Shown here: positions 10,629 to 31,279 of the stretch, in pieces
Layout of the letters: each line of letters starts with the position of its first letter
How positions within the stretch are numbered: the first letter of the stretch is position 1
From: a virus
IMG/VR virus record: IMGVR_UViG_3300027708_000210
Span: 1 to 32,728 of that record
Reading direction: 5' to 3' (one strand)
Length of the DNA stretch: 32,728 nt
The notes under the pieces: model-generated
What the model was told of the DNA's origin: nothing
The model's input: the letters and a program-made list of their open reading frames with translations, nothing else
Database searches by the model: none
Program-made: the position numbers and the translations under genes

Positions 10629-10641
10629 TAATATTTATTAT
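10629..10641 (+). promoter_or_regulatory. TATTTAT promoter-like motif before the 126-residue gene
   Basis: TAATATTTATTAT is an exact copy of the window's consensus, starting 4 bases after the previous stop and ending 10 bases before ATG 10652. The same 13-mer occurs at 13925 and, on the minus strand, at 18141. Confidence 0.6.
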
Positions 10642-10651
10642 AAAAGAGACA

Positions 10652-11032
10652 ATGGAATTTTTTATAAAAAAAGATGCAACATTACCACTACTTAAAATGC
10701 AAGTGGTTAAAGATGGTAGAAGTGACTATCAAAGTTTTATGAACTTGATAGAAACATCTACCATCGTTTTTTCTATGGTAGATGTTGCAACGGGAATACC
10801 AAAGATATCGTCAAAATTAGCAGGGTTTGTATCAAAAACTTTTGATGACCCTAACACTCCAACAGAATATTACATCTATTATCGTTTCACTAAAAAAGAC
10901 ACAGGTAAAGTAGGTAGATACGAGGGTCAATTTTTATTAAAGAACGAACAAGGTGATTTAATTGTTCCAATTAGAGAACAATTATTTATCAATGTTCAAG
11001 ATTCCTTTGTTTCTGACAACCCGTGTTGTTAA
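10652..11032 (+). CDS. Small virion-like protein, unassigned
   Basis: The 126-residue product is beta-rich, with no signal peptide or membrane segment. It has a MQVVKDGRSDYQSFMNLIE segment, FSMVDVATGIPKI, and a repeated-strand C-terminal half ending GKVGRYEGQFLL...LFINVQDSF. The layout loosely resembles the N-terminal domain of baseplate upper proteins (BppU-like), but I cannot confirm this. It has its own promoter-like motif and stands alone between the glycosyltransferases and the polymerase. The two terminal cysteines (CC) are unusual for a cytoplasmic virion protein. A structural role is inferred from context only. Confidence 0.55.
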   Translation: MEFFIKKDATLPLLKMQVVKDGRSDYQSFMNLIETSTIVFSMVDVATGIPKISSKLAGFVSKTFDDPNTPTEYYIYYRFTKKDTGKVGRYEGQFLLKNEQGDLIVPIREQLFINVQDSFVSDNPCC

Positions 11033-11054
11033 TTGATTTCCAAAAATAATTATT

Positions 11055-11067
11055 TTATATTTATAGT
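11055..11067 (+). promoter_or_regulatory. TATTTAT promoter-like motif before DNA polymerase
   Basis: The sequence ttaTATTTATagt matches the window consensus at 10 of 13 positions. It lies 56 bases before ATG 11124, so the transcript would carry the hairpin at 11079-11095 in its leader. Confidence 0.45.
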
Positions 11068-11078
11068 AATAAGGTTAA

Positions 11079-11095
11079 TCCAACAACTTGTTGGA
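11079..11095 (+). promoter_or_regulatory. Leader hairpin before DNA polymerase, possible translational operator
   Basis: TCCAACA (11079-11085) pairs with TGTTGGA (11089-11095) across a 3-base loop, 28 bases before the polymerase start. No T-run follows, so it is not a terminator. T4 DNA polymerase represses its own translation by binding a hairpin in its leader; a similar role here is inferred from position alone. Confidence 0.45.
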
Positions 11096-11123
11096 GCCAA
11101 TGTACCACAAAAAACTATAAATT

Positions 11124-13898
11124 ATGATTTCCCAAGAAGAGATTAAGTCCTTTTTAGAAGGCAACGACCCCGAAGAGCACATTGTGTGCGTAGAGTTTGA
11201 TTACGCAAAAGATTGCGTTTACAAGATTAAAGAAATTCCAGGACAACCTAAAACAATACAGAAAGACACGTTTATTGCGTTCTCATGGGTTGGTGATTTA
11301 AGAAACCTAAATTTTTACCAAGATTCCAAAGGATTACAAAAAGAGTCAATGACCAAATATGGTATTGTAATTGAGAAATTAGAAACTCAAGGTAATGATA
11401 GATTAGAGAAAGGACTTAAGTTTATGGTTAAGTCATTAAAGGGATATCGTTCACTTATACAATTTTTTAGAGATGGTGGATTAGACCCGTGGTCTGATAG
11501 AGCAAAAGATAAGATATTAATACTTCCCCCCGTAGAACAATACTTAATCTCAAAAGAAAAAAGATTATTCAAAGGTTATGAAGAATACAATGATGTTACC
11601 CGACTTGTATTTGACTTGGAGACGACCGCATTAGAACCTAAGGATGGTCGTATATTCATGATTGGAATTAAGACAAACAAAGGATACAAGAAGGTTATAG
11701 AATGTTCTGACGCTGAACAGGAACGTCAAGGATTGATTGAATTCTTTAATATAATAGATGACATCAAACCAAGTATTATTGGTGGTTATAACTCCGCAAA
11801 CTTTGATTGGTATTGGATATTTGAAAGATGTAAGGCACTTAATTTAGATATTAAAAAGATTTGTAGGACATTAAATCCGGGTAAAAATATTTCCCAATCT
11901 GAGAGTATGTTAAAACTTGCTAATGAGGTTGAGAAGTATAATCAGGTATCAATGTGGGGTTATAATATAATTGATATTATCCATGCCACAAGAAGGGCTC
12001 AGGCGATTAACTCAGGTATTAAGTCCGCAGGATTGAAATATATTACAAAGTATATTGATGCTGAAGCACCTGACCGTGTGTATATTGACCATACAGATAT
12101 TGGTTCTATGTATGCAAAGAAGGAAGAGTATTGGTTAAATACTCAGAATGGTAAATATAAAAAGGCGGATAAACCTGAGTTTGAGGATTTAGATAAAAGA
12201 TTTCCCGATGTTTATATTAAAGTAACGGGTGATAATATTGTTGAAAGATACCTTGACGATGATTTAGAGGAAACCTTATTGGTTGATGAAGAATTTAATC
12301 AAGGTTCGTTCTTACTTGCGTCTATGGTTCCAACAACATATGAAAGAGTATCCACTATGGGTACAGCCACTTTGTGGAGAATGGTTATGCTTGCGTGGTC
12401 ATATAAAAATAAATTAGCTATACCTGAAAAACAACAAAAAAGAGAATTTGTTGGTGGATTATCTAGGTTGATTAAAGTTGGATATTCAAAGGACGTATTA
12501 AAGTTAGATTTTAGCTCTCTATATCCATCAATACAACTCGTTCATAATATTTTCCCTGAATGTGATGTAAGTGGTGTTATGAAAGGATTATTATCATATT
12601 TTAGAGGTACCAGAATAAAATACAAAAATTTGGCATCAAAATATAAAAAAACAGATAAAAAATTATCACAGAAATACGACGCACTACAATTACCTATTAA
12701 AATTTTTATTAATGCTTTTTTTGGTAGTTTAAGTGCTCCTCAGGTTTTTAATTGGGGTGATGTTGATTGCGGTGAACAGATTACATGTACCGGCAGACAG
12801 TACCTTCGTCAAATGGTAAAATTTTTTATGAAAAAAGGTTATTCTGTACTTGTTCTTGACACTGATGGTGTAAACTTTTCATTACCCATTGGGGGTGTTG
12901 ATGATAGAGTATATATCGGTAAAGGTAATAATTGGTTAGTAGAAAAAGATAAGGAATATAGAGGATATGATGCGGATGTTGCGGAATTTAACGACATTTT
13001 TATGAAAAATGAAATGGGGTTAGATTGTGACGGTACTTGGGCAAGTTGTATTAATTTAGCAAGAAAGAACTACGCAACATTGGAGAATAATGGTAAAGTT
13101 AAACTCACAGGTAATACAATTAAGTCCAAAAAACTTCCATTATATATTGAGGATTTCTTGGATAAAGGAGTTAAGATGTTGTTGGAAGGTAAGGGTCAAG
13201 ATTTTGTTAATTGGTATTATGACTATCTTCAGATTATCTTTGATAAACAAATCCCACTAATGAAGATTGCTCAAAGAGCCAAAGTTAAGTTATCAATGGA
13301 TGATTATATGACTAGAACGACTCAAAAAACTAAGTCGGGTGGAGCTATGAGTAGAATGGCTCATATGGAATTGGTAATACAAAATAAGTTAAATGTTAAT
13401 TTAGGTGATGTAATATACTACGTTAATAACGGTTCAAAAGCTTCTCATGGTGATGTCCAAAAAATATCAAAACCAACCAAAGCCCAAAATGAAGAACACA
13501 CTAAAAAATATGGTAAACCAATGCCGGTGGATTATATTCAGATTAATAGTTACATGTTAGATGCTAAAGAGTTGGAGAATAACCCTGAAATGACGGGTGA
13601 GTATAATGTTCCAAGAGCAATTACCACATTTAATAAAAGAATTGAGCCATTATTGGTTGTGTTCAAACAAGAAATTAGAGATGGTTTATTGGTTGAGGAC
13701 CCTAAAGATATGGGATTATTTACCAAAGAACAATGTGAACTAATTAACGGTGTACCATTTGAAGAAAAAGACCAAGATAGATTAAAAGAAGATTTGTTGG
13801 ATATGTCTGTAGACGAAATTAAATTTTGGGAAAAAAAGAATATAAACCCAAATTATATTTATGATTTGGCGGAACCTGAGTGGGAAAATTTTATATAA
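11124..13898 (+). CDS. Family B DNA polymerase with 3'-5' exonuclease
   Basis: This is a 924-residue replicative polymerase, close in length to T4 gp43 (898). Exonuclease motifs: Exo I DLET at 164-167 (acidic residues D164 and E166), Exo II GGYNSANFDW and Exo III-like YLDDDLEET. Polymerase motif A is LDFSSLYPS (D462), motif B is in the KIFINAFFGSL region, and motif C is LDTDG (D579, D581). All catalytic acidic residues are present and no intein or intron interrupts it. It is preceded by a promoter-like motif and a leader hairpin. A small ribbon-helix-helix-like gene and an HNH endonuclease follow closely, which is a common site for homing endonucleases. I see no break in the frame. Confidence 0.97.
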   Translation: MISQEEIKSFLEGNDPEEHIVCVEFDYAKDCVYKIKEIPGQPKTIQKDTFIAFSWVGDLRNLNFYQDSKGLQKESMTKYGIVIEKLETQGNDRLEKGLKFMVKSLKGYRSLIQFFRDGGLDPWSDRAKDKILILPPVEQYLISKEKRLFKGYEEYNDVTRLVFDLETTALEPKDGRIFMIGIKTNKGYKKVIECSDAEQERQGLIEFFNIIDDIKPSIIGGYNSANFDWYWIFERCKALNLDIKKICRTLNPGKNISQSESMLKLANEVEKYNQVSMWGYNIIDIIHATRRAQAINSGIKSAGLKYITKYIDAEAPDRVYIDHTDIGSMYAKKEEYWLNTQNGKYKKADKPEFEDLDKRFPDVYIKVTGDNIVERYLDDDLEETLLVDEEFNQGSFLLASMVPTTYERVSTMGTATLWRMVMLAWSYKNKLAIPEKQQKREFVGGLSRLIKVGYSKDVLKLDFSSLYPSIQLVHNIFPECDVSGVMKGLLSYFRGTRIKYKNLASKYKKTDKKLSQKYDALQLPIKIFINAFFGSLSAPQVFNWGDVDCGEQITCTGRQYLRQMVKFFMKKGYSVLVLDTDGVNFSLPIGGVDDRVYIGKGNNWLVEKDKEYRGYDADVAEFNDIFMKNEMGLDCDGTWASCINLARKNYATLENNGKVKLTGNTIKSKKLPLYIEDFLDKGVKMLLEGKGQDFVNWYYDYLQIIFDKQIPLMKIAQRAKVKLSMDDYMTRTTQKTKSGGAMSRMAHMELVIQNKLNVNLGDVIYYVNNGSKASHGDVQKISKPTKAQNEEHTKKYGKPMPVDYIQINSYMLDAKELENNPEMTGEYNVPRAITTFNKRIEPLLVVFKQEIRDGLLVEDPKDMGLFTKEQCELINGVPFEEKDQDRLKEDLLDMSVDEIKFWEKKNINPNYIYDLAEPEWENFI

Positions 13899-13924
13899 AA
13901 AAATACTACTTTTATTAAAAGTTA

Positions 13925-13937
13925 TAATATTTATTAT
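13925..13937 (+). promoter_or_regulatory. TATTTAT promoter-like motif abutting ATG 13939
   Basis: This is an exact TAATATTTATTAT with one base between it and the start codon. If it is a -10-type element, the transcript would begin at or just after the ATG. The 17-mer through the ATG is identical to that of the minus-strand gene starting at 18139. Confidence 0.6.
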
Positions 13938-13938
13938 T

Positions 13939-14097
13939 ATGGGGAGACATAAAAAAAACAAAGAAGATAAAAAAATTAAAGTTAGTATTAGTATTAATAG
14001 AGAATTATATTATAAAATAAAAGAAGATAAAATTATGCCTTCCCGTATAATAGAAAAATTAATTAAAGAGTATTATGCAATTAAAAATTTGTTGTAG
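13939..14097 (+). CDS. Small ribbon-helix-helix-like protein (52 aa)
   Basis: I start it at ATG 13939; an upstream in-frame ATG at 13861 lies inside the polymerase gene. The product is very basic at the N-terminus (MGRHKKNKEDKK), then has a beta-strand KIKVSISIN, helix RELYYKIKED and a turn plus helix MPSRIIEKLIKEYY. This is the strand-helix-helix outline of MetJ/Arc-type DNA-binding dimers. A similar small protein is encoded at 23436-23275. Its end overlaps the HNH gene by 23 bases, so the two are translationally linked. It is probably a local transcriptional regulator, but the target is unknown. Confidence 0.65.
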   Translation: MGRHKKNKEDKKIKVSISINRELYYKIKEDKIMPSRIIEKLIKEYYAIKNLL

Positions 14098-14644: not shown

Positions 14645-14976
14645 GAAATTTTTAACCCATCGCTTGAAAGGATATACCATCCTCCAGCACAATAAACAAA
14701 CTCAACACACGCACCTTTGTCAATAAATATTTCATCATATTCATCATCAATTTTACCCATAATAGGTAATATTAAAACTTTTGTTAGTGCCTTTATTGTT
14801 ACGTGGTCGGTAGTTGTGTGGTCTAATGTAACTTTACTACTATCAATATTTTTTATAATAACAATTCCCTCACCTTTAGTGACAAAAGTGGGGTCAGAAA
14901 CTATTGCAGATTCTGATGATGTTATTGTTTTTCCGTTAATAATACGTTGTGATGGGATATTTCTTATTATTGCCAT
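14641..14976 (-). CDS. Small virion-type protein, unassigned (111 aa)
   Basis: The protein is beta-rich: SQRIINGKTITSSESAIVSDP, then GEGIVIIKNIDSSKVTLDHTT and a C-terminal GACVEFVYCAGGWYILSSDG, a pattern common in small phage decoration or appendage proteins. It has no catalytic motif, signal or membrane segment. It follows the 370-residue gene with a 3-base gap, so it is the last gene of the minus-strand operon. The two proteins share the start MAII, and co-assembly is plausible. The identity is uncertain. Confidence 0.55.
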   Translation of the reverse strand: MAIIRNIPSQRIINGKTITSSESAIVSDPTFVTKGEGIVIIKNIDSSKVTLDHTTTDHVTIKALTKVLILPIMGKIDDEYDEIFIDKGACVEFVYCAGGWYILSSDGLKIS

Positions 14977-14979
14977 AAA

Positions 14980-16092
14980 TTAAATTACATATATTTGACG
15001 AGGGAATGCCCTAAACTTCATCGCCTTGTTTAAATTTTCGGCGGTTAGTGCTTCTTTCTCCATCATTTTTTCAGGTCTCATTCTTTCAAGACGAGCCATA
15101 AGTTCTTCCCTAAGTTTATCTCTTTCATCTTTACCTTCAGTTAGTAAACTTGTATAGTCCATAGTTAACTCACTGTCAGGTGCTTTAAGATTACCACTAT
15201 ATTTACCTCTAACTCTACCTAAAGTTTCTTTACAAAGTCCAATAAACCATCTTCTAACCCACTGTTGTGCGGGGTTATTTAGTTCATCCCAACTAATTTC
15301 ATCAATCGGAACGTCAGAAGGTAATTTAACGATGTCAGGATTTTTCTTTAAACAATCGTCCCTATCGGCACCATCTACATCATAATACCAATACCAAACT
15401 TTACCATTATGGAAATTTGCACTACCGAAATCCCATTTACCTCCAGGCGTGTTCATTAAATGTATCATCTTTTTACCATCAGGTAATGCGGTAACTCTAT
15501 AAGTTAAATCACCACCAATAATACGTCTTTGTATGTTGGTTTCTTGCATTCTCAATAACATATCAAAAGCCGGCATCATAGTGTAAGAACCTGAATATCC
15601 TAATTGTGCGAAACCACCGACACCACCAAGTCCAGGACCACCCATGGCACCAAATGCAAATGGGTCAAACATTACGTTGTTCATTGTTGGTGGGGTATAC
15701 CATAACAATTCATTAATTTCTCTACCCGCAGGTATTTCGTATAGTTGTTGACCTCTTTGTAGGGTAATATAATCTTTTTTTAAAACCCAATCACCTCCTT
15801 GTTGTAATCCAACAATTTTTGAGTAAGCATAACTATATCTTGTTTCATAATCTAAACTTCTCGTTATGAATGCTTTAGTTAAAGATTGTTCATCAAGATT
15901 TAAGTTTTGCAATGCGGACCATTGTGATTCAATTAACCAATCTTGAATATATTGAGAATAATCTCCAATGGATAATTCTAATAAAGAATCTAACATTTCA
16001 TCTTCTAGCTCAACACTTCTAAGTGGAGCTCCGAGTAGATGTTTAACTCTCGTATATAATTTACTTCTATTTGGTTCAGATATTATAGCCAT
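14980..16092 (-). CDS. Virion structural protein, probably neck-type
   Basis: The 370-residue product has an acidic helical N-terminus (EPNRSKLYTRVKHLLGAPL, LEDEMLDSLLELSIGDY), a glycine-rich loop (AFGAMGGPGLGGVGGFAQLGY) near 150, and a conserved-looking C-terminal part with QQWVRRWFIGLCKETLGRVRG and LTMDYTSLLTEGKDERDKLREEL. The last block resembles a family of unannotated structural proteins of large contractile-tailed phages, usually near neck and head-completion genes. I cannot assign it to a T4 gene. It ends 3 bases before the next gene and starts 9 bases after the superoxide dismutase gene's stop. Confidence 0.6.
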   Translation of the reverse strand: MAIISEPNRSKLYTRVKHLLGAPLRSVELEDEMLDSLLELSIGDYSQYIQDWLIESQWSALQNLNLDEQSLTKAFITRSLDYETRYSYAYSKIVGLQQGGDWVLKKDYITLQRGQQLYEIPAGREINELLWYTPPTMNNVMFDPFAFGAMGGPGLGGVGGFAQLGYSGSYTMMPAFDMLLRMQETNIQRRIIGGDLTYRVTALPDGKKMIHLMNTPGGKWDFGSANFHNGKVWYWYYDVDGADRDDCLKKNPDIVKLPSDVPIDEISWDELNNPAQQWVRRWFIGLCKETLGRVRGKYSGNLKAPDSELTMDYTSLLTEGKDERDKLREELMARLERMRPEKMMEKEALTAENLNKAMKFRAFPRQIYVI

Positions 16093-16101
16093 TTTATGTC
16101 T

Positions 16102-17748
16102 TTATGATAAATATTCAGAACAGTTCATAAATTTAATATTATTACTTCCTTGTAATGTCATAAAATTATTTTGTTTTGGTATTTTAAAATCAGTTTTCTT
16201 AACTGTCACATTTTCAGTTTTAAATATTCTGACTTTTTTCTTTTTTATATTAACAAATATTAACAAATCAACTTTAGTATATTCTTTAGCCCCCGAAGAA
16301 CCACTTATAATAAAATAATTATCTATTTCAATTTCATTAGTATATGGTTTAATTTGCCCTGTTAAAATTTTAGATTCTATATTAATAGTAGCATCAATAC
16401 CTGACATCATATCACTCGTTAATCCACCACCTGAAGTGATTGTACATGCTCCATCACCTAAATTTTCGTCAATTATTTTTTTAGCACCATCCTCATTTCT
16501 TTTACCATAACAATCAGTTGTTCTTAATATCTTCTCAATATGTTTTAAAGTATTAGAACTTTGTCTATCAAACAATCTTGATTTAATACCTTCCATTACT
16601 GAAAAGAATCTTATTAATTGTGATAAGTTTTCTTCAGGATTATCACCATAAACTATAGGTTCTTGATTTGTGTGTTTTAAATGACGATTAATATCATTAT
16701 GTATAACACAAAATGCAGAATATGATGAAGTTAAATTATTCAACAATGACCTTTTATTCTCAGCATCATATAAACCCGGCATATGTCCAACAAATAACTC
16801 ATCCTTTTCTCTCCAATTTTGGGGATATAAACCCTTTAAAAAACTATTCCAACCCTTAACATATTCTTCCTTAAATTTTTTAAGTAATTCCCTTTTTGTT
16901 TTATCCTCAGTATACGAAGGAAATAATAAACTTTTAAATATTTTTTCATCTTCGGTTGAACAAGTATGTGAGTGTCCTGTCGCCTCAAGTAATATTTCAT
17001 TCTCTTTTAACATAAGTTGTGTCATAACTGTTTCTTCGTTTATTTTGGTTTCTAATTTCATTTTGTAAAGTTTCTCAACAAATTCCCAATTTACCGCCTC
17101 CCAGAATTGTTTGATATAATCATCTCTCCTATTTCTATATTTCAAATAATAAGCATGTTCCCACAAATCTAATCCAAGAATTGGATATCCACCATCTTCA
17201 ACGTCGTTCATTAAAGGATTATCTTGGTTTGGGGTGGACATTATTTTTAATTTATTATTTTTCGTAACAATCAACCAAACCCAACCTGAACCGAATCTTT
17301 CTTTTGCGACCGTCTCAAATTTTTTCTTGAACTTGTTAAAGGTATCAAAATCTTTGTTAATCCTTTGTGAAACTAATTCTTTTGGTTTCTGTGGTGTTGG
17401 GGATAACATCTTCCAAAACAATGCGTGATTGTAAGCTCCACCAGCATTATTTCTAATGGTATTATCATACTTGCTAATAGTTTTAACAATTTGTTCTAAA
17501 TCCAAATCACCAAACTTTTCTTTTTCTAAAGCAAGATTTAATTTTTCAACATACCCTTTATAGTGTTTGTTGTAGTGAAAGTCCATAGTTTCGGGGTCAA
17601 TAAATTTCTTTAATGCCGTTTTTGCATATGGTAATTTCTCAATACCTATTTTTTTCATTTCAGTTATAAAAAATTTTTCACTATAATCTTTTTCCTTCTT
17701 AACTATTTCTTCCTCTAACTGTTCTATTCTATTAACTAAGTTTTTCAT
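16102..17748 (-). CDS. Mn/Fe superoxide dismutase fused to a long C-terminal region (possible PD-(D/E)XK nuclease)
   Basis: Residues about 35-232 are a complete Mn/Fe superoxide dismutase, which converts superoxide to oxygen and hydrogen peroxide. All four metal ligands are present: H58, H108 (in NNAGGAYNHALFW), D194 and H198 in the signature DLWEHAYYL. The GG before NH and Q175 in PNQDNPLM favour a Mn-type or cambialistic enzyme. Ordinary SODs are about 200 residues; this one is 548. It has an N-terminal coil (1-22) and about 310 further residues. In these, SGIDATIN (449-456) followed by GQIKPYT (464-470) resembles the D...QxK core of a PD-(D/E)XK nuclease, a weak call. It overlaps the metalloprotease gene by 17 bases. 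It could serve oxidative defence or be a structural reuse of the fold. Confidence 0.88.
   Translation of the reverse strand: MKNLVNRIEQLEEEIVKKEKDYSEKFFITEMKKIGIEKLPYAKTALKKFIDPETMDFHYNKHYKGYVEKLNLALEKEKFGDLDLEQIVKTISKYDNTIRNNAGGAYNHALFWKMLSPTPQKPKELVSQRINKDFDTFNKFKKKFETVAKERFGSGWVWLIVTKNNKLKIMSTPNQDNPLMNDVEDGGYPILGLDLWEHAYYLKYRNRRDDYIKQFWEAVNWEFVEKLYKMKLETKINEETVMTQLMLKENEILLEATGHSHTCSTEDEKIFKSLLFPSYTEDKTKRELLKKFKEEYVKGWNSFLKGLYPQNWREKDELFVGHMPGLYDAENKRSLLNNLTSSYSAFCVIHNDINRHLKHTNQEPIVYGDNPEENLSQLIRFFSVMEGIKSRLFDRQSSNTLKHIEKILRTTDCYGKRNEDGAKKIIDENLGDGACTITSGGGLTSDMMSGIDATINIESKILTGQIKPYTNEIEIDNYFIISGSSGAKEYTKVDLLIFVNIKKKKVRIFKTENVTVKKTDFKIPKQNNFMTLQGSNNIKFMNCSEYLS
16104..16116 (-). promoter_or_regulatory. 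TATTTAT promoter-like motif inside the end of the SOD-fusion gene
   Basis: On the minus strand this reads gaaTATTTATcat, 11 bases before ATG 16092, and also encodes the last residues (EYLS) of the preceding gene. It matches the consensus at 11 of 13 positions, but dual coding makes it weaker evidence than the intergenic copies. Confidence 0.4.
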
Positions 17749-18139
17749 GTGTCTTATATATTAAATCTGTAAATTTGGGATGGTATCTTTCAAACTTTTT
17801 AACTAATTCACCCGATAATGCGTTTGCCTCATTTTCCAAATGTCCACCAATATTTTTACCTTTCTTTTTATGCTTAATAGCGTGTTGATATTCATGTATC
17901 CATTCGTGCGCCAATGTTCTAATAATGTCTCGGTTTAATCTACCGGCAGATAATATAAAAAGTTCATGTTCATCGGTTCTTTCTCCCGTTGTCATATCTT
18001 TAATTCTATTACCTAAAAAATTTACTTTAATGTTTTTTTCTAAAGGATAATTTTTTTGAAGAAACTCAATAAATTTATTAAATAATTTATGTTCGGATTT
18101 ATCTATCCCCGACTTACTATATATTACCGAAATGTCCAT
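17732..18139 (-). CDS. Small zincin metalloprotease-like protein
   Basis: The 135-residue product has HEWIH at 78-82, the HExxH zinc and catalytic motif, inside RTLAHEWIHEYQHA, and a downstream LENEANALSG with E104 as probable third ligand. This is a gluzincin layout also seen in ImmA/IrrE-like and SprT-like families. It has no signal peptide, so it would act in the cytoplasm or virion. Proteases of this kind in phages may process virion proteins or cleave host regulators; neither is shown. It starts 11 bases after the helicase stop, right after an exact promoter motif, and overlaps the next gene by 17 bases. Confidence 0.75.
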   Translation of the reverse strand: MDISVIYSKSGIDKSEHKLFNKFIEFLQKNYPLEKNIKVNFLGNRIKDMTTGERTDEHELFILSAGRLNRDIIRTLAHEWIHEYQHAIKHKKKGKNIGGHLENEANALSGELVKKFERYHPKFTDLIYKTHEKLS

Positions 18140-18140
18140 A

Positions 18141-18153
18141 ATAATAAATATTA
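18141..18153 (-). promoter_or_regulatory. TATTTAT promoter-like motif abutting ATG 18139
   Basis: The minus strand reads TAATATTTATTAT, starting with the helicase stop codon and ending one base before the start codon. It fills the whole intergenic gap and is identical to the 13925 copy through the ATG. Confidence 0.6.
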
Positions 18154-21033
18154 AGATTTATTGTTTATTAATCTCATAATTTCCTCAACAACATCAACTT
18201 TATCCATATTATCACCCATCACTGTTTCAAAGATATTTTTCTTTTTGGATAGGATATCGTAGATAACTCCTTCTATCGTATTCTCAAAGATAGGATAATA
18301 AACTGAAACATTTGATTTTTGTCCATATCTATACGACCTGTCCTCAGCCTGGCTATGGTCTGAAGGTACAAATGATAGGTCATTCATTATAACCGCTTCA
18401 CCCGCAGTTAATGTTAAACCAACACCTGCCGCTTTAAGATTTCCAACAAATATTTTTATTTTATCATTTGTTTGGAACTCATCCACAGCGTTTTGTCTTT
18501 TAGCTTGAGAACAACTACCATCAACATAGACCGCTTTTTTTCCAAAATGCTCTACCAATTTTTGTAGGGATGCTGTGAAGTTTGTAAATATAATAACTTT
18601 CTTTCCTTGTTCCACAATATTCTCGGCAAGTTCTATTGATGACTCTATTTTTTCATCCGCAATTATCTGTCTAACTTTTGTAAGTTTGGTAAATTGTAAT
18701 GTCATAGATGATGATTCTTCAGCCTTGGTTTTATACCAATCATAATATTCGCCCATTAATTCTTCATATAATTTAGACCTTAATCTCAAATAAACGGGGG
18801 TGATAATTTTGTCAGGTAAATCTAAAACATCTTCTTTTAATCTTCTCAACACTTGTTTAGATGTTCTATCTCTAAGTTCTTCAAGATTAGAAGCCCCACT
18901 TGTATTCCATATTTTTCTATTACCCCCAACTCTAAATTGATACCCTTGACAATATCTAATAACATAAGCCATCCAATTTCCCGCAACAGGATTCTCAATT
19001 AAACTTAATAAGTTATAATAATTGATTGGCCTTGAAGTCATTGGTGTTCCCGTTAATAACCATAGTTTATCAACACTTTTGGCAAAACTATTAATTAATT
19101 TTGTTCTTTGAGCTTGAACATTTTGAAGATAGTGGGCTTCATCAATTATTATTAAATCAAAATTACATTGATAAATCGGACTATTCTCTTTGTCTTTTAT
19201 ATCATAAAAATTTTTAATAATATCGTAATTGGTAATAACAAAATCGTGTTCAGTTGAGAAGTTTTTACTTTCACATATGAAAACACTTCTATCACTATAA
19301 TTCGCAATTTCTCTTTGCCAATTTATCTTAAGGGATGCTGGACAAATAATTAAAATCTTTTTAGCTCCCGTTTCAAGTGCTGCAATAATGGTGGAGGTTG
19401 TATTATGGGTAACTATACAATGTTCCGCAACATATAGTTTGTCCGGAGAATCAACTGAAATACATACAGCATCTCCTTTCCTTTCAAATTCTATTTTTTT
19501 AATATATCTCCCAACTTTATATTTTTGTGGTTCTTTATACAATTCTTTTTTTCTTTGTAATTTGAACGGGTTCATCCCCGATTGTAATTTAATATTTACA
19601 CGATAAGCCTTTTTTCCATTTTTTTTCTCACCGTTATAAGTATATTTTGGAATTCTACTTGATTTACGAGCGATTCCTCCTAAAGTGTGAACTATTTCAA
19701 TCACATCATCTGTAAGTTGTTCGGATATTGAACAAAATTCTGTACCTAAAAATTCATTATTTTTTCTTGATTTATAACAAAAACCGTCTGTATCCATTAA
19801 TCCTTGTAAAATTAGTAACCTATTTTCTATACTTGAATATTTGTAAACATCAGGAATAAATTTTTGACTTGAGTTACAACCCATTAAGTTTAATTGTCTT
19901 AATTTATCAATTAAAGAATTTTTTCCTCTTATTTTTGTAACAATATCGTAATCACAATTATCTCCACTTGTTTTTTTAATTTCTAAATCATCTGTCAATA
20001 GTTTTTTTATTTCTTCAATTATCTCATCATCTATACTACTAAATCTTATACTTTTTGTTATTCCACCGTCACCTAATATTAATCCAAGTAAGTAAGGATG
20101 AATTGGTAATTCTTCATTATTATCAAATGTAATAGGTTTAACAATTGGTATTTGCCATTTTGATTGACCGTTACTTTGAAGATAATATGTTGATTGTAAT
20201 TTATCAAAAGAATTACTATTTCTTGTTACCTTTAACTCTTTATCTAAAAGCTGTTTTGTTGTTAAATTTAACGTTAGGGTTTTTCTACCTTTTGAGTTGT
20301 TTCCATTCGCTCTTGTTGAAACTGTCCATATGTGTTCATCACAACATAATATTGAACATCCGTCATTGAATGTTATTTTGTATAAATCTTTTAGTCCTTG
20401 TGGATAAACCCCTGTTACGTTATGTGAATTACCGTCACTACCTATTACTTTATCCCCCACTTTAATATCTCCCATTTTTTTCACTCCATCAGAGGTATAA
20501 ATTTTTGTATTTATTTCAAGAGCTTTACCCAATCCCATATCATCCGCTAATATAAATCTCTTACTACCGACCAATTTCTCAATGGCTTCTTTTTGATGAC
20601 CTAATGGGGGACGATGTTCGTATTTTGAATAATCAATCTCAACTTGTTCTACCTTATGAGCTTTAATAATTGCGTTCTTCGGTAACCAAAAATCGTGGTT
20701 TGTTTCCCCACTGAATATTTTACCCCAAATATGATATGATTTGTCTTTCTCAACCAATAATTTCTCAACCCAAACTTGTTCAGGAACTACTGTATACAAT
20801 TTTTCATCGGCAATTTTTTGAGCGAAGTAGGGGTCTAAATCAACCCATTTCTTGGCGACTTTAGGTTGGGTGTCGTGAAAATTAATTATATAATCTGATT
20901 GAGCCCGAGTGGGATAAAACTTTTTATTAACTTGTGATTGATGTTTTAATTTAAGGATATAGTTATTTGCACCCTCATAGGTGTCCAAAATTTTTAATGC
21001 GGTTCTTTCAATTAAATGAGTGGTATTTTCCAA
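18151..21033 (-). CDS. SNF2-family helicase interrupted by an intein
   Basis: The 960-residue precursor would leave 586 residues after intein removal. The helicase has an N-terminal domain (1-145), Walker A DDMGLGK (164-170) continuing after the intein with TT (545-546), DEAH at 631-634, LLTGTP (659-664), and a C-terminal RecA-like domain with VIIFTNFTASL (813-823), AGVGLTLTAG (868-877) and QAEDRSYRYGQ (895-905), all typical of SNF2 ATPases. Such phage enzymes remodel replication or recombination intermediates, as T4 UvsW does from a different family. The start is TTG (21033-21031); no in-frame ATG precedes it before an upstream stop, and the first internal Met is inside Walker A. The gene is divergent from 21082 across 48 bases. 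Loss of splicing would destroy the ATP site. Confidence 0.95.
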   Translation of the reverse strand: MENTTHLIERTALKILDTYEGANNYILKLKHQSQVNKKFYPTRAQSDYIINFHDTQPKVAKKWVDLDPYFAQKIADEKLYTVVPEQVWVEKLLVEKDKSYHIWGKIFSGETNHDFWLPKNAIIKAHKVEQVEIDYSKYEHRPPLGHQKEAIEKLVGSKRFILADDMGLGKALEINTKIYTSDGVKKMGDIKVGDKVIGSDGNSHNVTGVYPQGLKDLYKITFNDGCSILCCDEHIWTVSTRANGNNSKGRKTLTLNLTTKQLLDKELKVTRNSNSFDKLQSTYYLQSNGQSKWQIPIVKPITFDNNEELPIHPYLLGLILGDGGITKSIRFSSIDDEIIEEIKKLLTDDLEIKKTSGDNCDYDIVTKIRGKNSLIDKLRQLNLMGCNSSQKFIPDVYKYSSIENRLLILQGLMDTDGFCYKSRKNNEFLGTEFCSISEQLTDDVIEIVHTLGGIARKSSRIPKYTYNGEKKNGKKAYRVNIKLQSGMNPFKLQRKKELYKEPQKYKVGRYIKKIEFERKGDAVCISVDSPDKLYVAEHCIVTHNTTSTIIAALETGAKKILIICPASLKINWQREIANYSDRSVFICESKNFSTEHDFVITNYDIIKNFYDIKDKENSPIYQCNFDLIIIDEAHYLQNVQAQRTKLINSFAKSVDKLWLLTGTPMTSRPINYYNLLSLIENPVAGNWMAYVIRYCQGYQFRVGGNRKIWNTSGASNLEELRDRTSKQVLRRLKEDVLDLPDKIITPVYLRLRSKLYEELMGEYYDWYKTKAEESSSMTLQFTKLTKVRQIIADEKIESSIELAENIVEQGKKVIIFTNFTASLQKLVEHFGKKAVYVDGSCSQAKRQNAVDEFQTNDKIKIFVGNLKAAGVGLTLTAGEAVIMNDLSFVPSDHSQAEDRSYRYGQKSNVSVYYPIFENTIEGVIYDILSKKKNIFETVMGDNMDKVDVVEEIMRLINNKS
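19402..20523 (-). mobile_element. Class 3-like intein with LAGLIDADG homing endonuclease, in the helicase Walker A
   Basis: The intein is 374 residues (171-544 of the precursor), inserted between K170 of GLGK and T545. It begins with Ala instead of Cys or Ser and ends VTHN. It has the Trp-Cys-Thr set described for class 3 inteins: W236 in CDEHIW (block B), C524 in AVCISVDSP (block F) and T542 before HN (block G), with Thr at +1. The two endonuclease dodecapeptides are LLGLILGDGG (315-324, D322) and LQGLMDTDGF (409-418, D416), so splicing and homing functions look intact. Class 3 inteins have been linked to phages and SNF2/DnaB helicases. Boundaries come from the conserved ends and the restored GLGKTT. 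Confidence 0.95.
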
Positions 21034-21062
21034 AAATACGTTATTTATATAATAATAACAAA

Positions 21063-21080
21063 ATTATAAATATTTATCAA
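21063..21080. promoter_or_regulatory. Divergent TATTTAT motifs on one palindrome
   Basis: ATAAATATTTAT (21066-21077) is a perfect 12-base palindrome that places a TATTTAT core on both strands. One copy points to the helicase start (29 bases away) and the other ends 4 bases before ATG 21082. It is the only clear signal in the 48-base divergent gap. Confidence 0.55.
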
Positions 21081-21081
21081 T

Positions 21082-21597
21082 ATGGCAAACAATAAAGTTC
21101 CAATAACAAGGTTAGGTAAGTTCTTCGGGGCCGAAGATTATTCATTGGATATTAATATGGGTGAGGAGTGGTTGCATGGAGATATGAACTTCACATTAGT
21201 GTTGTACCGTGTTGATAGGTACAAAACAAAGACAGATGATGTGTATGGTGAAACGGTTACAGACGGAATTAAGTATTTATCACCAGTAGAATTTAAATCC
21301 TATGTTCAAGTTATGGCACCTGAAAACAAATATTTGGGTAATTCTAAAGTAGAACAATTTGAACCCGGTAACATTAAGGTATCCGTTTACCAACAACACT
21401 TAGATGAGTTAGATATTGATATTTCATATGGTGATTATTTGGGATATTATGAAACAGAAACAAGAGTTAGATATTATGTAGTTAATAATGATGGTAGGGT
21501 TGTTTCGGATAACAAACACTCATATGGAGGTGTTAGACCTTTTTATAGAACAATATTGGCATCACCTGTTAGTCAAAATGAATTTAGAGGTATATGA
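21082..21597 (+). CDS. Virion structural protein, neck/tail-type, unassigned
   Basis: The 171-residue product opens MANNKVPITRLGKFFGAEDYSLDINMGEEWLHGDMNF in broken form (MANNKVPITRLGKF, then DINMGEEWLHGDMNF) and is mixed alpha/beta, with no catalytic motif, signal or membrane segment. The middle part QVMAPENKYLGNSKV and the Tyr-rich end (YLGYYETETRVRYYVV) suit a structural role. It leads a three-gene block (stop/start overlap ATGA with the next gene) that precedes the sheath, where contractile phages usually encode neck and tail-completion proteins. The exact identity is unknown. Confidence 0.55.
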   Translation: MANNKVPITRLGKFFGAEDYSLDINMGEEWLHGDMNFTLVLYRVDRYKTKTDDVYGETVTDGIKYLSPVEFKSYVQVMAPENKYLGNSKVEQFEPGNIKVSVYQQHLDELDIDISYGDYLGYYETETRVRYYVVNNDGRVVSDNKHSYGGVRPFYRTILASPVSQNEFRGI

Positions 21598-23475: not shown

Positions 23476-23521
23476 ATAATATAAATATCTTTTACAAAGT
23501 AAAGTTTTTTCATAAAAAAAC

Positions 23522-23534
23522 AAATATTTATGAT
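23522..23534 (+). promoter_or_regulatory. TATTTAT promoter-like motif before the tail sheath
   Basis: The sequence aaaTATTTATgat lies 30 bases before ATG 23565 and matches the consensus at 11 of 13 positions. Confidence 0.5.
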
Positions 23535-26897: not shown

Positions 26898-26909
26898 TAC
26901 TTATTAAAT

Positions 26910-26933: not shown

Positions 26934-26943
26934 TTATTAATTT

Positions 26944-27759: not shown

Positions 27760-27836
27760 TTTATATACTGGAACTGGATTCTAGTAGAAGAATAAAAGAT
27801 AAAAAAATAAAGTAAATACAAAAATTTTTAAAAAGG

Positions 27837-27849
27837 AAGTATTTATAAA
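27837..27849 (+). promoter_or_regulatory. TATTTAT promoter-like motif before the tail tube
   Basis: The sequence aagTATTTATaaa is the best signal in the 123-base gap before the tube gene, 33 bases upstream of ATG 27883. It matches the consensus at 9 of 13 positions, with the core intact. Confidence 0.4.
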
Positions 27850-27882
27850 TAATAAAAATAAAAAAAATTAAATTTAAATATT

Positions 27883-28371
27883 ATGGCTGATTTACTCATG
27901 AAGATGCCGATTCCCTACGAACCCAAAAGAGCGAATCGTTTCATTTTAAGATTTCCAAGTACATTAGGGATTAACGAATGGTTTGTTGAAAGCACAAAAA
28001 GACCGGCAATTAAAATCAAAGACGTTGAGATTCCTTTCTTAAATACATCAACATACGTTGCGGGTAGGTTTAACTGGGACGCAATCACAGTGACGTTTAG
28101 AGACCCGATTGGACCTTCGGCAGCACAAGCCTTAATGGAATGGGTTCGTTTACATGCAGAGTCAGTAACAGGTCGTATGGGTTATGCTGCGGGATATAAA
28201 AAGAACGTAGATTTGGAAATGTTAGACCCAACCGGAGTTGTTGTTGAAAAATGGATATTAGAAGGAACTTTCTTGACAGGTGTAGATTTCCAAGCACTTG
28301 CATATTCTGATGATAAGTTAGCGACTATTCAAGCAACTTTAAGAATGGACAGATGTATTTTAGTTTATTAA
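27883..28371 (+). CDS. Tail tube protein (gp19-like)
   Basis: The 162-residue product is the size of T4 gp19 (163). It has KRANRFILRFPSTLGINEWFV, then RFNWDAITVTFRDPIGPSAA and GRMGYAAGYKKNVDLEMLDPTG, and ends with a long strand TIQATLRMDRCILVY, all typical of myovirus tube subunits. It would form the inner conduit inside the sheath. It is a highly expressed single gene in layout, with its own promoter-like motif and a strong terminator straight after, followed by the chaperone and tape measure genes in the usual order. Confidence 0.93.
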   Translation: MADLLMKMPIPYEPKRANRFILRFPSTLGINEWFVESTKRPAIKIKDVEIPFLNTSTYVAGRFNWDAITVTFRDPIGPSAAQALMEWVRLHAESVTGRMGYAAGYKKNVDLEMLDPTGVVVEKWILEGTFLTGVDFQALAYSDDKLATIQATLRMDRCILVY

Positions 28372-28381
28372 TATTTATTTA
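28369..28381 (+). promoter_or_regulatory. TATTTAT promoter-like motif before the chaperone gene
   Basis: TAATATTTATtta begins on the tube stop codon and matches 11 of 13 positions. Transcripts from here would run through the terminator at 28406-28449 before reaching ATG 28454. Confidence 0.45.
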
Positions 28382-28405
28382 CTAAAAAAAATAATTACAC
28401 TATAT

Positions 28406-28449
28406 TTAACCGTAGGGAAACTATAAACTCTCTACGGTTAATTTTTTTT
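28406..28449 (+). terminator. Rho-independent terminator after the tail tube
   Basis: TAACCGTAG (28407-28415) pairs perfectly with CTACGGTTA (28432-28440), extended by a G-U pair and two more pairs inward, and is followed by T8 (28442-28449). It ends only 4 bases before the next ATG. Confidence 0.9.
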
Positions 28450-28453
28450 ATAT

Positions 28454-29206
28454 ATGGACGAATCAAAACAATATGGACAACAAAATTTAAATTTACCACA
28501 CGATGTTGTTAAATTACCTTCAGGTGGTGTATTTTATAAATCAAAGAAAAAAGCGATTAAGGTCGGGTATTTAACCGCCTCTGACGAAAACTTATTAATG
28601 GCGGGAGATACCAATAGAGATGGTATCGTAATGACACTATTAAGAAGTAAAATATATGAACCAGATATTAGACCTGAAGAATTATTAAATGGTGATATAC
28701 AGGCAATATTAATATTTCTTAGAAATACTGCTTTTGGTTCAGAATATTCTTTCAAATTAACTGACCCTGAAACAGGTAAAGATTTTGATATTGATGTATC
28801 TTTGGAAGAATTATATATTAAGAAAACTGAAGTAACTGCAAATGAGGAAGGTTCATTTACAACTGTATTACCAAAATCAGGGGTTACAGTAAAATTAAGA
28901 CCATTATCTTTTGGAGAACAAGATGAGTTAGACAAATTGGGTGAAAAATACCCTGCAGGTAGAGTGGCTCCAAAACAAACATGGAAATTAAATAAAATGA
29001 TTGTAGAATTTAATGGTTCAACTGATAGACAATTGATTAGTCAAAATGTTGATTCGTTACCAATTGCCGATGCAAAATATATCCGAAGGTTCATTGATGA
29101 TAATGAGCCAGGACTAGACTTAACCAAACAAGTAATCGCCCCATCAGGAAAAGAGGCCAATGTTAACATTGCCTTTGGGGTGGAGTTTTTTCGGCCTTTC
29201 TTCTAA
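28454..29206 (+). CDS. Tail-assembly chaperone / T4-baseplate (gp26)-like protein
   Basis: The 250-residue product resembles the T4_baseplate (gp26-like) family: VVKLPSGGVFYK (18-29), VGYLTASDENLLM, then RPLSFGEQDELDKLG and the C-terminal end NIAFGVEFFRPFF. Position is the strongest clue: between tail tube and tape measure, where long-tailed phages encode the G/GT tail-assembly chaperones. Its end overlaps a second reading frame (29160-29357) in the +1 phase, with a T6C run (29186-29192) at residues 245-246, close to the stop. This suggests a frameshifted longer form. The T4 role of gp26 in baseplate hub assembly is an alternative. Confidence 0.8.
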   Translation: MDESKQYGQQNLNLPHDVVKLPSGGVFYKSKKKAIKVGYLTASDENLLMAGDTNRDGIVMTLLRSKIYEPDIRPEELLNGDIQAILIFLRNTAFGSEYSFKLTDPETGKDFDIDVSLEELYIKKTEVTANEEGSFTTVLPKSGVTVKLRPLSFGEQDELDKLGEKYPAGRVAPKQTWKLNKMIVEFNGSTDRQLISQNVDSLPIADAKYIRRFIDDNEPGLDLTKQVIAPSGKEANVNIAFGVEFFRPFF

Positions 29207-29357
29207 TTACCGAGAATCCCAATCATGGGAATATTATATCTGTACAAAACATATGAATGTTTCATATACGGACTTTCTTATTATGCCTGTATATCTCAGG
29301 AAATATCTTATTAATGAACTTGTTAAAGAGAATTCTCCAAAAGAAAACGAATGGTGA
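29160..29357 (+). CDS. Probable C-terminal tail-assembly chaperone segment (frameshift product or overlapping gene)
   Basis: The open frame is in the +1 phase relative to the preceding gene and overlaps it by 47 bases. The convincing part is the C-terminal 50 residues: NYRESQSWEYYICTKHMN, then VSYTDFLIMPVYLRKYLINELVK, a pattern like the small helical T segment of tail-assembly chaperones. It could be made from ATG 29160, from ATG 29253, or by +1 or -2 slippage at TTTTTTC (29186-29192), giving a fused G-T protein. Only 26 bases separate it from the tape measure gene. I recognise no T4 name for it. It is less certain than its neighbours. Confidence 0.6.
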   Translation: MLTLPLGWSFFGLSSNYRESQSWEYYICTKHMNVSYTDFLIMPVYLRKYLINELVKENSPKENEW

Positions 29358-29369
29358 TGTATTTATTAT
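29357..29369 (+). promoter_or_regulatory. TATTTAT promoter-like motif before the tape measure gene
   Basis: The sequence atgTATTTATtat lies 14 bases before ATG 29384 and matches 10 of 13 consensus positions. Confidence 0.45.
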
Positions 29370-29383
29370 TAAATAATTAAAAA

Positions 29384-31252
29384 ATGTTATTTCAAGACAA
29401 AACAGAGGCCTCATCCCAAGAAACCAAATTTGACTTAAAAACATATCTTGAAGATTTTGGAAAAGTTTTAAAAAGTCCTTTTGGTGGTGTAGACGAATTA
29501 AAAAGTGTGTTTAGCACTATGGAGGATACCGCAGTAAAACTTGCAACGAGTTTTGGTGGTACTTCTTCATTTAGTCAGACAATACGAGACAGTATGGCAG
29601 GGGCGGCATCAAGTATGGCTGAGATTGGTGGTAGTATGTCGGATATTGAGGATATACAAAGAAATGTGGTTAAAACATTACAAACACAAACAATATTAAA
29701 TGAAGAATCCTATAAGGATTTGTTTGCTTCGGCTCAGTTAGTGAGTGATGGAACTAAGGGGGGTGCTCAGATGACGGGGGAAATGATTAAGAATTTTACA
29801 AATGCGGGATATGGACTTTACAATATAGGTAAAGAAATGACGGGTATTCTAAATACCGCTAGAGAAGTTGGTGTTACAGCAACTGCGGTTTATGAACAAC
29901 TTGGGACTAATATGGGTAAATTAGCTCTTTATAATTTTGAGAACGGAGTACAAGGAATGGCCAAAATGGCGGCCCAAGCGGCGGGTCTTAGAATTGATAT
30001 GAAAACTACGTTTGGGCTGGCCGACCAATTGTTTAATCCTGAAAAGGCGATTGAAATGGCAGCCGGATTCCAAAGGCTTGGGGTACAAGTAACAAATTTA
30101 CTTGACCCATATAAGTTAATGGATATGGCGAGAAACGACCCTAAAAAATTACAAGAATCTATTGTAGAAGCAACAAAACAGTTAACGTATTTTGATGAAA
30201 AAAGTAAAAGTTTTAGAATATTACCTGGTGCTCAAGGACAGTTAAGAGAACTTGCAACTCTTATGAATATTCCGGCGGAAGAGTTAGCGAAAATGGGACA
30301 AAACGCCGCAGATTTAGATAAAAAATTAAGAGAAATATCTTTTCCATCTGATTTTGCTAAAGAAGAGGATAGAAAGATGATTGCCAATATGGCACAAATG
30401 AGTGGTAGTAGTTATGTTGTTACTTTTACTGATAAAGATAACGGAGAAACAGTTACTAAAAAAGTTACTGAGTTATCAGAAAAAGATAGAGAAAATTTAG
30501 TTAAGGCGAATGAACCCGCAAAAAGTGCGGTTGATTTACAAATAGAGGCTAATGGTTATTTAAGAGGTATGTATAACGCTTTGAAGGCAAGACAAATAGC
30601 ATTACCTGCAAGAGCGGCAGCATCATCTAATGTTCAAACAGGAATTAAATATATAAAAGAAAATATTACTGACAGATATGCCGAAGACGTACTTGATAAT
30701 ATTGTAAAGGTTAAACGAGAACCAAGAAAAGATAAGACAGGGTTTTTAAGTTCTAAAGGTACTGATGAAGAAATTAATAAAATTACGACTGAATTAGGAA
30801 AAATAATGATTGAGGGTATTAAAAAAGGTAATATCAATCAAACTTTAACTGATATGTTGAAATATACCACAGACCAAATTAAAAATAAAGCTACAGATGT
30901 TAAAGAAGGTGTTACAAAATTTTTAATTGACCTTAAAACTTCTGCGATGTCGGGAATAATACCCACAGCATCTATCCGAGCATCTTCAATGGCCTCAACA
31001 GTATCTCCAACAGTTTCACCTGTCATTGGTTCTGTTGTGACACCGGCAAATTCAAGAACGGTTATTTCATCAACACAATCACAAAATTCTAATATAAGTA
31101 CGACCCCAATAACAATTAATTATAACGACTATTCAAACAATACTGTTATGGATAATTCTAAAATTTTAGACCTTAAAAAGGCTGAAATACAAAATTTAAT
31201 TTATGAGACAGTTAAAAAAGTTGAAGAGGAACAAAAAAATAGAAAACAATAA
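29384..31252 (+). CDS. Probable tail tape measure protein
   Basis: The 622-residue product is largely helical with alanine- and glycine-rich stretches (MAGAASSMAEIGGSM near 68-82, MAKMAAQAAGL near 193), no long Cys-containing segment, and a C-terminal Ser/Thr/Pro-rich tract (about 525-575) ending in a charged helix. It follows the tube and chaperone genes in the canonical order. Tape measure length sets tail length; at about 0.15 nm per residue this would give a tail near 90 nm (rule of thumb). It lacks a transmembrane segment I can see. A baseplate hub protein is the main alternative. Confidence 0.75.
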   Translation: MLFQDKTEASSQETKFDLKTYLEDFGKVLKSPFGGVDELKSVFSTMEDTAVKLATSFGGTSSFSQTIRDSMAGAASSMAEIGGSMSDIEDIQRNVVKTLQTQTILNEESYKDLFASAQLVSDGTKGGAQMTGEMIKNFTNAGYGLYNIGKEMTGILNTAREVGVTATAVYEQLGTNMGKLALYNFENGVQGMAKMAAQAAGLRIDMKTTFGLADQLFNPEKAIEMAAGFQRLGVQVTNLLDPYKLMDMARNDPKKLQESIVEATKQLTYFDEKSKSFRILPGAQGQLRELATLMNIPAEELAKMGQNAADLDKKLREISFPSDFAKEEDRKMIANMAQMSGSSYVVTFTDKDNGETVTKKVTELSEKDRENLVKANEPAKSAVDLQIEANGYLRGMYNALKARQIALPARAAASSNVQTGIKYIKENITDRYAEDVLDNIVKVKREPRKDKTGFLSSKGTDEEINKITTELGKIMIEGIKKGNINQTLTDMLKYTTDQIKNKATDVKEGVTKFLIDLKTSAMSGIIPTASIRASSMASTVSPTVSPVIGSVVTPANSRTVISSTQSQNSNISTTPITINYNDYSNNTVMDNSKILDLKKAEIQNLIYETVKKVEEEQKNRKQ

Positions 31253-31266
31253 AAAAAACAAATAAG

Positions 31267-31279
31267 CGCTATTTATAAT
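31267..31279 (+). promoter_or_regulatory. TATTTAT promoter-like motif before the last gene
   Basis: The sequence cgcTATTTATaat lies 12 bases before ATG 31292 and matches 9 of 13 positions. It is in a 39-base gap. Confidence 0.45.

Follow-up and report, generated by a model that had tools for sequence, protein, structure and literature searches.

A TATTTAT box as the probable late promoter, and predicted leaderless mRNAs, in a clade of uncultured T4-like phages

The stretch of DNA analysed here, all 32,728 nucleotides of the IMG/VR virus record IMGVR_UViG_3300027708_000210 (hereafter the window), carries in front of many of its genes the box ATATTTAT, with the core TATTTAT, often followed by A. 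In our reading, to which we give a probability of roughly 0.85, this box serves as the late promoter in a clade of phages of the T4 superfamily, read by a phage sigma factor of the gp55 type, with many of the genes behind it leaderless. The genes of this 32.7 kb record point to a contractile-tailed phage: its proteins match tail sheath, tail tube and baseplate hub, as well as family B DNA polymerase, SNF2 helicase and endonuclease VII. Late transcription of T4 is a textbook subject and has been described chiefly for phages of Proteobacteria and cyanobacteria. The box reported here most likely belongs to the same type of late promoter, with TATTTATA in place of TATAAATA as its core. Namely, it would act as a stand-alone -10-type element, with no -35 element, to which a phage-encoded sigma of the gp55 kind (approximately 250 aa, with a sigma region-2 fold) would bring the host RNA polymerase, and transcription would begin 5 to 7 nt after the box, preferably on an A. 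In leadered units this start slot would read AAA; for a second class of genes it would coincide with the A of the ATG, giving a leaderless mRNA. Other, presumably early, genes would use a promoter of the host sigma-A type (TTTG, 17-22 nt, TAnnTTTG), in many cases at a distance of exactly 4 nt from the ATG and, going by published host data, also leaderless.

An original prediction, made on the window itself, had listed twelve TATTTAT copies in front of genes, and every one of them is present on the strand given, as are the three copies of the exact 13-mer TAATATTTATTAT (10629+, 13925+ and 18141-). Simple rarity of the heptamer can be ruled out as the signal, since the whole window holds 31 copies against 32.6 expected by shuffling, i.e. 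no enrichment. Fourteen of the 31 lie within 968 intergenic bases, or 3% of the window, and in 2000 dinucleotide shuffles of the intergenic sequence (13 stretches of at least 10 nt, 950 nt) the mean was 3.6 and the maximum 11, with none reaching 14. Eleven of the listed copies are intergenic, the remaining one (16107-) sitting at the 3' end of the gene that precedes the one it faces. That the copies precede genes holds for 12 of the 14 intergenic ones, which face a start within 75 nt, but the copy at 13925 faces the ATG at 13939 and not the longer open reading frame (ORF) at 13861, for which no ortholog was found among the relatives. Similarly, the copies at 21063- and 21068+ both exist, but they are the same palindrome, ATAAATATTTAT (21066-21077), read on either strand. 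Three intergenic copies had gone unlisted: 21042+ faces a start at 33 nt, whereas 23481- and 27845- face none, the latter being the other reading of a palindrome. In order of position, the listed copies stand 13, 59, 4, 14, 4, 32, 4, 33, 36, 75, 17 and 15 nt from their starts.

Relatives were collected with a tail sheath query (80 IMG/VR loci, the best of at least 599 matches) and a DNA polymerase query (80 loci, the best of 238 matches); pieces of the window itself (L001-L003) were excluded from the counts, and genes shorter than 60-80 aa and duplicate upstream sequences were dropped. Ortholog counts refer to TATTTAT within 100 nt of the orthologous start, sense and antisense. The box at 10632-10638 (+), 13 nt before the ATG at 10652 of a leadered 126-aa ORF, is found in 36/36 orthologs (8 antisense), and the one at 16107-16113 (-), 14 nt before the ATG at 16092 of a likewise leadered gene (14980-) with a match to the PHROG head-tail adaptor Ad2, in 67/67 (6 antisense). 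Equally complete are the counts for 31270-31276 (+), 15 nt before the ATG at 31292 (24/24, 2 antisense), for 27840-27846 (+), part of the palindrome TATTTATAAATA at 27840-27851 and 36 nt before the tail tube ATG at 27883 (42/42, 14 antisense), and for 18144-18150 (-), 4 nt before the ATG at 18139 of a 135-aa ORF (17732-) that is predicted to be leaderless (14/14, 3 antisense). Tail sheath, with its box at 23525-23531 (+) and 33 nt before the ATG at 23565, has 86/87 in sense, an antisense TATTTAT also lying near in 80/87; for the full ATATTTAT the sheath counts are 82 sense and 13 antisense. The box at 29360-29366 (+), 17 nt before the ATG at 29384, recurs in 5/6 (2 antisense), the plus reading of the palindrome at 21066-21077, 4 nt before the ATG at 21082 and again predicted leaderless, in 74/82 (12 antisense), and that of DNA polymerase B (11058-11064, +, 59 nt before the ATG at 11124) in 41/58 with 0 antisense, its gaps being mostly 55-63 nt. 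The minus reading of the same palindrome, 32 nt from the SNF2 helicase start, is weakly conserved (17/76 orthologs), and its antisense count of 76 is due to the divergent box of 21082. Weaker still is the candidate at 28372-28378 (+), 75 nt before the baseplate hub gene at 28454, with 6/42 in sense and 2 antisense, or 8/42 if 200 nt are allowed. The box at 13928-13934 (+), for which there is no ortholog set, stands 4 nt before the ATG at 13939, so placed that its 52-aa ORF (13939-14097, +) is predicted leaderless; to the eye, this ORF resembles a small ribbon-helix-helix DNA-binding protein.

Window genes that have no box mostly lack it in the relatives as well: it was seen in 0/37 (29160), 1/30 (14641-), 1/33 (8943) and 0/16 (21594) and, in small sets, in 0/11 (14075), 0/7 (6645), 0/2 (5847) and 1/4 (7976). 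A few window genes without it do have it in relatives, namely 16102- (43/57), 26944 (43/60), 4595 (17/24) and 22238 (17/93). The remark that no copy stands at the glycosyltransferase start is accordingly true of the window but not of the clade, as relatives carry the box there in 17/24.

The same picture emerges genome-wide. In 606 codirectional intergenic gaps from the relative loci and the window, ATATTTAT is present in sense in 287 and in antisense in 26 and is the most strand-biased 8-mer. Nine large relatives were examined, eight of them fetched as genomes (192-322 kb; G007 was left out). Four of these served for de novo motif discovery by expectation maximisation, shuffling of upstream regions and a search for orthologs of T4 proteins, and all eight for operon context, start-slot bases, start-codon checks, counts of promoter classes, box variants and family resampling. 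The motif containing ATATTTAT ranks best in each of the four genomes and is estimated to be present in 61-76% of upstream regions, where ATATTTAT is found 26-46 times in sense and 10-21 times in antisense, with 2.5-7.0 in shuffles; the antisense values are raised because divergent regions are read both ways. Among 2188 nonredundant genes of the eight genomes, TATTTAT lies upstream of 32/932 tightly packed genes, 296/632 same-strand genes with space in front of them and 168/319 divergent genes, the corresponding antisense counts (ATAAATAT) being 10, 8 and 86, a pattern to be expected of a promoter, not of a ribosome-binding element. At promoter positions, 284 copies of the consensus 8-mer stand against no more than 19 of any single change within TATTTAT, and TATTTATA accounts for 193 sites versus 24 for TATAAATA, i.e. 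the T4 consensus is not the one that prevails here. In 689 aligned sites no -35 element of comparable information was seen, only weak A/T positions 15-17 nt upstream, and the DNA downstream of the box is A-rich. The promoter reading of the original prediction is therefore upheld by strand bias, shuffles, de novo discovery, operon context and conservation at most orthologous starts (weak at 28454 and SNF2), and we consider the ATATTTAT box to be real and very probably functional as a late promoter.

Another 8-mer, AAGTAAAG, was considered as a -35 partner and rejected: it is second among the sense-biased 8-mers, but its 7-mer AAGTAAA peaks 61-80 nt upstream of starts. In the window it lies, by eye, upstream of the tail sheath gene within an apparent intrinsic terminator. 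Approximately 80 nt before the sheath start there is also a plus-strand ATAAATA (TATTTAT at 23481-23487 on the minus strand), which is kept in 80/87 relatives, adjoins an apparent terminator hairpin and is followed by no minus-strand gene; the 74 occurrences of TATAAATA, the T4 consensus, in the corresponding distance bin over all genes are taken to be these copies.

The most surprising part of the analysis is the spacing between box and start codon, which points to leaderless mRNAs. Start codons were called from ORFs, mostly as the first ATG, and individual spacings may be wrong. The distribution for ATATTTAT is bimodal: spacings of 4, 5 and 6 nt are found 77, 41 and 18 times, those of 7-11 nt only 14 times in total, and a second mode follows at 12-18 nt, whereas the antisense control is flat. 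The shape persists when each of 881 families contributes a single gene (200 draws), with 29, 18 and 6 at 4-6 nt and about 6 in total at 7-11 nt, and 89 families contain at least one late-box gene at 4-6 nt. In leadered units (12-20 nt), A occupies positions +5, +6 and +7 after the box in 86, 91 and 89% of cases, as compared with 56-67% at +1 to +4 and 50-67% at +8 to +12; we therefore predict the start slot to be +5 to +7. Since a spacing of 4-6 nt puts the A of the ATG in that very slot, leaderless mRNA is predicted for this class, to which 170 of 597 late-box genes belong. Spacings of 4-6 nt are also found for 32 of 86 genes of the host type. Distances from TAnnTTTG to the ATG are sharply concentrated at 4 nt (61 genes, 30 of them with the TTTG partner), with 17 sites in all at 5-12 nt. 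The near-absence of 7-11 nt spacings would fit very short leaders that suit neither leaderless nor leadered initiation; helical phasing of the two modes finds no support in the histogram. Taken together, we hold it to be fairly probable that in this clade a large share of both promoter classes, early and late, is expressed from mRNAs with no leader or next to none, both boxes being set for an AUG at +1, and that transcription of many leadered units begins on a run of AAA, where slippage could add a short 5' poly(A).

How unusual would this be? A passage of PMC6847099 places the transcription start of Flavobacterium johnsoniae 4 or 5 nt after TAnnTTTG and gives 87% of leaders as longer than 10 nt, and in F. 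psychrophilum 5.5% of 890 mRNAs are stated to be leaderless (PMC9723704). A remark in PMC5312081 has it that phage transcripts are often leaderless, and PMC3160421 regards a -10-like box some 10-12 nt ahead of the start codon as the mark of leaderless bacterial genes. Our case resembles those TA-led genes in having a -10-like box close before the start codon, but differs in that phage genes of both promoter classes are involved and that the known hosts of the group are mostly leadered. Searches of the PMC open set found no title or abstract on the ATATTTAT box or on late promoters of T4-like phages of Bacteroidota, and the leaderless spacing rule did not come up in them either.

The second promoter class, TTTG-N17-22-TAnnTTTG, precedes 86 of 2195 genes in the eight genomes. 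The two classes largely exclude each other: of 977 genes with upstream space, 75 have the host-type promoter, 469 the late box and 8 both, where 36 would be expected (Fisher p 1.3e-12). With a spacing of 15-25 nt, the TTTG/TAnnTTTG pair exceeds both antisense and shuffles in each of the four genomes. Host-type examples cluster at 155-168 kb in G006 and 145-153 kb in G008, less clearly in other genomes, and the genes concerned are presumably an early class. It is mainly because of this promoter class that the clade appears to infect Bacteroidota. The pattern is the Bacteroidota sigma-A promoter, with a spacing to the ATG that fits the 4-5 nt to +1 published for the host, yet it serves other genes than the late box, which lacks the final G and the TTTG partner. 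A search for hosts gave no host record: the scan of genomes with the tail sheath found no match, and the sigma query matched one metagenome-assembled genome labelled 'bacterium'. At the SNF2 start (21059-21089, -), a host-type TTTG...TAATTTTG overlaps the divergent late-box palindrome, as it also does in G008; the pattern is found in 3/76 SNF2 orthologs only, and the overlap is perhaps an early/late switch.

A candidate for the factor that would read the box is encoded by most of the large relatives. The family phrog_234, that of the T4 late sigma, matches seven of the nine (E-values 3e-5 to 5e-3) and 25 of 39 aligned homologs, and a relative of this sigma-like protein is encoded in 493 of 600 IMG/VR stretches examined, these being the best of a longer list. 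The proteins are approximately 250 aa long and 65-67% identical to the first aligned one (39 of 87 proteins were aligned; upstream regions of the gene were taken from 40 of 87). By eye, the gene abuts or overlaps the preceding stop codon in the 40 upstream regions, and neither promoter class occurs there within 90 nt. An AlphaFold model, with a predicted local distance difference test score (pLDDT) of 73.7 and a predicted template-modelling score (pTM) of 0.40, aligns to sigma region-2 chains, sigmaE coming first (Z 10.5) and gp55 in its holoenzyme (7d7c_F) third (Z 10.1, 121 residues, 4.0 A), and a sequence search of the PDB with the protein gave nothing meaningful. A phage-encoded RNA polymerase was looked for and set aside, as none of 9 records showed an Rpb1 domain 2 (control 14/14); the search for a single-subunit polymerase matched nothing anywhere and so carries no weight. 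Neither is use made of the clamp-loader family, which matches all 8 records and 14/14 cellular controls and is taken as generic AAA+.

Further evidence comes from the comparison with T4 and with one cultured phage. Homologs of T4-type virion genes were found with phmmer for gp18 and gp25 in 4/4 genomes, for gp17, gp20, gp21 and gp23 in 3/4 and for gp13 and gp19 in 1/4, along with homologs of nrdA, and the box precedes gp18 in 4/4, gp25 in 4/4, gp21 in 3/3, gp20 in 2/3, gp17 in 2/3, gp19 in 1/1 and gp13 in 1/1. In PMC2988020 the T4 late box is described as occupying the -10 place, roughly a helical turn upstream of the start; it has no -35 element, and the DNA downstream is AT-rich. The system described here shares with the T4 late promoter and its gp55, gp33 and gp45 (Straboviridae) a single 8-bp TA box in that place, the absence of a -35 element, the AT-rich downstream DNA, the use of both strands, the position before most virion genes tested and a match to the gp55 family of sigmas within the phage. 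It differs in the core (TATTTATA versus TATAAATA), in a remote sigma of some 250 aa, in that gp33 and gp45 were not detected, in the frequent leaderless spacing and in the box before DNA polymerase. In other words, membership in the T4 late system is partial. The original prediction was right that the box differs from the T4 late sequence, but read in the same direction the two differ by just two central bases, and their seemingly reverse-complementary relation follows from palindromic ends.

In the phage collection, the sigma-like protein has a tblastn match at E 0.01 or better in a single record, Microcystis phage Mel-JY01 (27.5%; hhalign of the homologs covers 213 columns with E 1e-10). The upstream regions of this phage hold ATATTTAT 26 times in sense and 5 times in antisense, with 11 sense sites for 43 genes in the first 50 kb (virion genes), 10 for 65 at 50-100 kb, 1 for 83 at 100-150 kb and 4 for 37 at 150-190 kb. 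The box, the homologous sigma-like protein and T4-like capsid and tail tube genes are thus shared, whereas the host is a cyanobacterium, leaders are Shine-Dalgarno-like and 0/26 sites fall at 4-6 nt (one at 2, the others at 13 or more). As DNA polymerase has a box and 10 of the 26 Mel-JY01 sites lie at 50-100 kb, among replication genes, 'late' should not be equated strictly with 'virion'.

That said, a number of observations speak against a gp55-type late system. As regards the sigma, no gene for it lies on the window itself, it was not found in G004 and G007, although G004 is rich in boxes, and of the 14 records searched with a profile, several of them fragments, 6 yielded it. The link to gp55 is remote: phrog_234 also matches 2 of 14 cellular control genomes, Pfam gave no sigma match in the three relatives tested, hhalign of the protein to T4 gp55 alone yields a probability of 6%, and the Mel-JY01 homolog matches no PHROG. 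Against the model, whose pTM must be kept in mind, gp55 does not outscore ordinary sigma region-2 chains, and Foldseek with the model returned no match below 0.001. Of the partner proteins, gp33 (phrog_254) has a chance-level match only (E 0.05, in 1/7 relatives) and the gp45 clamp (phrog_223) none (0/7 relatives); T4 controls matched in both searches, which can miss remote gp33 homologs and would miss a diverged clamp. As regards the box, it is missing within 100 nt of gp23 (0/3) and nrdA (0/3), it is carried by DNA polymerase, and the variants GTATTTAT, CTATTTAT, ATATTTAA and AAATTTAT are above background at promoter positions (62, 29, 19 and 17). Finally, T4 itself is a weak positive control, with ATAAATA in 13 sense and 5 antisense of 46 genes and TATAAATA not the top 8-mer.

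Could the box be something else altogether? Chance or mutational bias in AT-rich intergenic sequence would explain the unremarkable whole-window count, but we regard it as refuted by the intergenic shuffles, the strand asymmetry the conservation at orthologous starts and the one-gene-per-family resampling. An element of translation initiation, acting in the RNA near the start codon of Bacteroidota mRNAs without Shine-Dalgarno sequence, would agree with the frequent placement 4-20 nt before the ATG and with the A-rich starts that a passage of PMC6847099 calls typical of Bacteroidota. It is nevertheless very unlikely, as genes within tight operons, which are translated too, seldom have the box (32/932), there are several separate distance modes, the box is kept mostly 55-63 nt before polB, and in the cyanobacterial phage 25 of 26 sites lie at least 13 nt before the start, many with a Shine-Dalgarno-like GGAG in between. 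Slightly less improbable, though still poorly favoured, is recognition by an alternative sigma of the host instead of one from the phage. Two of the nine large relatives have no detected sigma, and F. psychrophilum does possess extracytoplasmic function (ECF) and sigma-54 factors according to part of PMC9723704; yet the box is phage-wide and no small regulon, and it recurs in a cyanobacterium's phage that shares the sigma homolog. It is because one box serves phages of apparently different host phyla with a common sigma homolog that we favour a phage factor.

A different objection concerns the 4-6 nt class, which may not be leaderless if its real starts lie downstream or if transcription begins upstream of the box, and the calling of starts from ORFs leaves some room for this. 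We deem it unlikely on the whole: in this class, 107 of 135 ortholog pairs have alignments that begin at one shared residue, number 3 or lower, compared with 1853 of 3349 for all pairs, and differences in codons 2-12 are biased to the third position (291/231/493), as they are further downstream. What is more, the 7-11 nt gaps are nearly empty, and AAA occupies the same slot in leadered units. Provided that the leaderless reading is correct, a T4-type late system would have been adapted to a host without Shine-Dalgarno initiation, as is suggested by the cyanophage relative that has the same box and keeps Shine-Dalgarno-like leaders. The prediction would also touch the open question of how start codons are chosen in Bacteroidota lacking Shine-Dalgarno sequences. 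More generally, the results map two promoter classes computationally in uncultured T4-like phages whose hosts appear to be Bacteroidota and suggest that a late box can change its core yet keep its architecture, the new core being linked to a sigma lineage shared with a single isolate, Mel-JY01. In practical terms, box and start slot may be useful for placing starts and delimiting operons in hundreds of phage contigs from metagenomes.

Some features of the window stand apart from the promoters. A megablast search against phages gave no match. The SNF2 helicase gene (18151-21033, -) is apparently interrupted by an intein (LAGLIDADG match, with a Hint match below the cut-off), and the ORF at 16102-17748 (-) carries an iron/manganese superoxide dismutase domain at its N-terminus and continues for approximately 320 more residues. 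Two large ORFs at the left end are perhaps adhesins or fibres: 3-1226 (+) has leucine-rich repeats and threonine/proline-rich linkers, and 1220-4474 (+) has no PHROG match, Pfam not having been run on it.

Lastly, the polB leader contains, downstream of its late box, a covarying RNA element of two helices (11073-11106, +), whose outer pairs join 11073-11075 with 11104-11106. It has the form GGU-AAAU-hairpin-AGCNAAU-ACC in the window and 25 loci within L084-L156, these 26 leaders (23 distinct) having been hand-picked from 81. No Rfam family matches it at gathering score. In the alignment, 98.4% of cells pair, covariation is 0.833 versus 0.317 when shuffled, and both sides change in 50 cells versus 15.4; 7 of 8 pairs change on both sides, but shuffles reach the same in 196 of 500. 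The polymerase of T4, gp43, has an autogenous operator, and by analogy the element could possibly be one as well.

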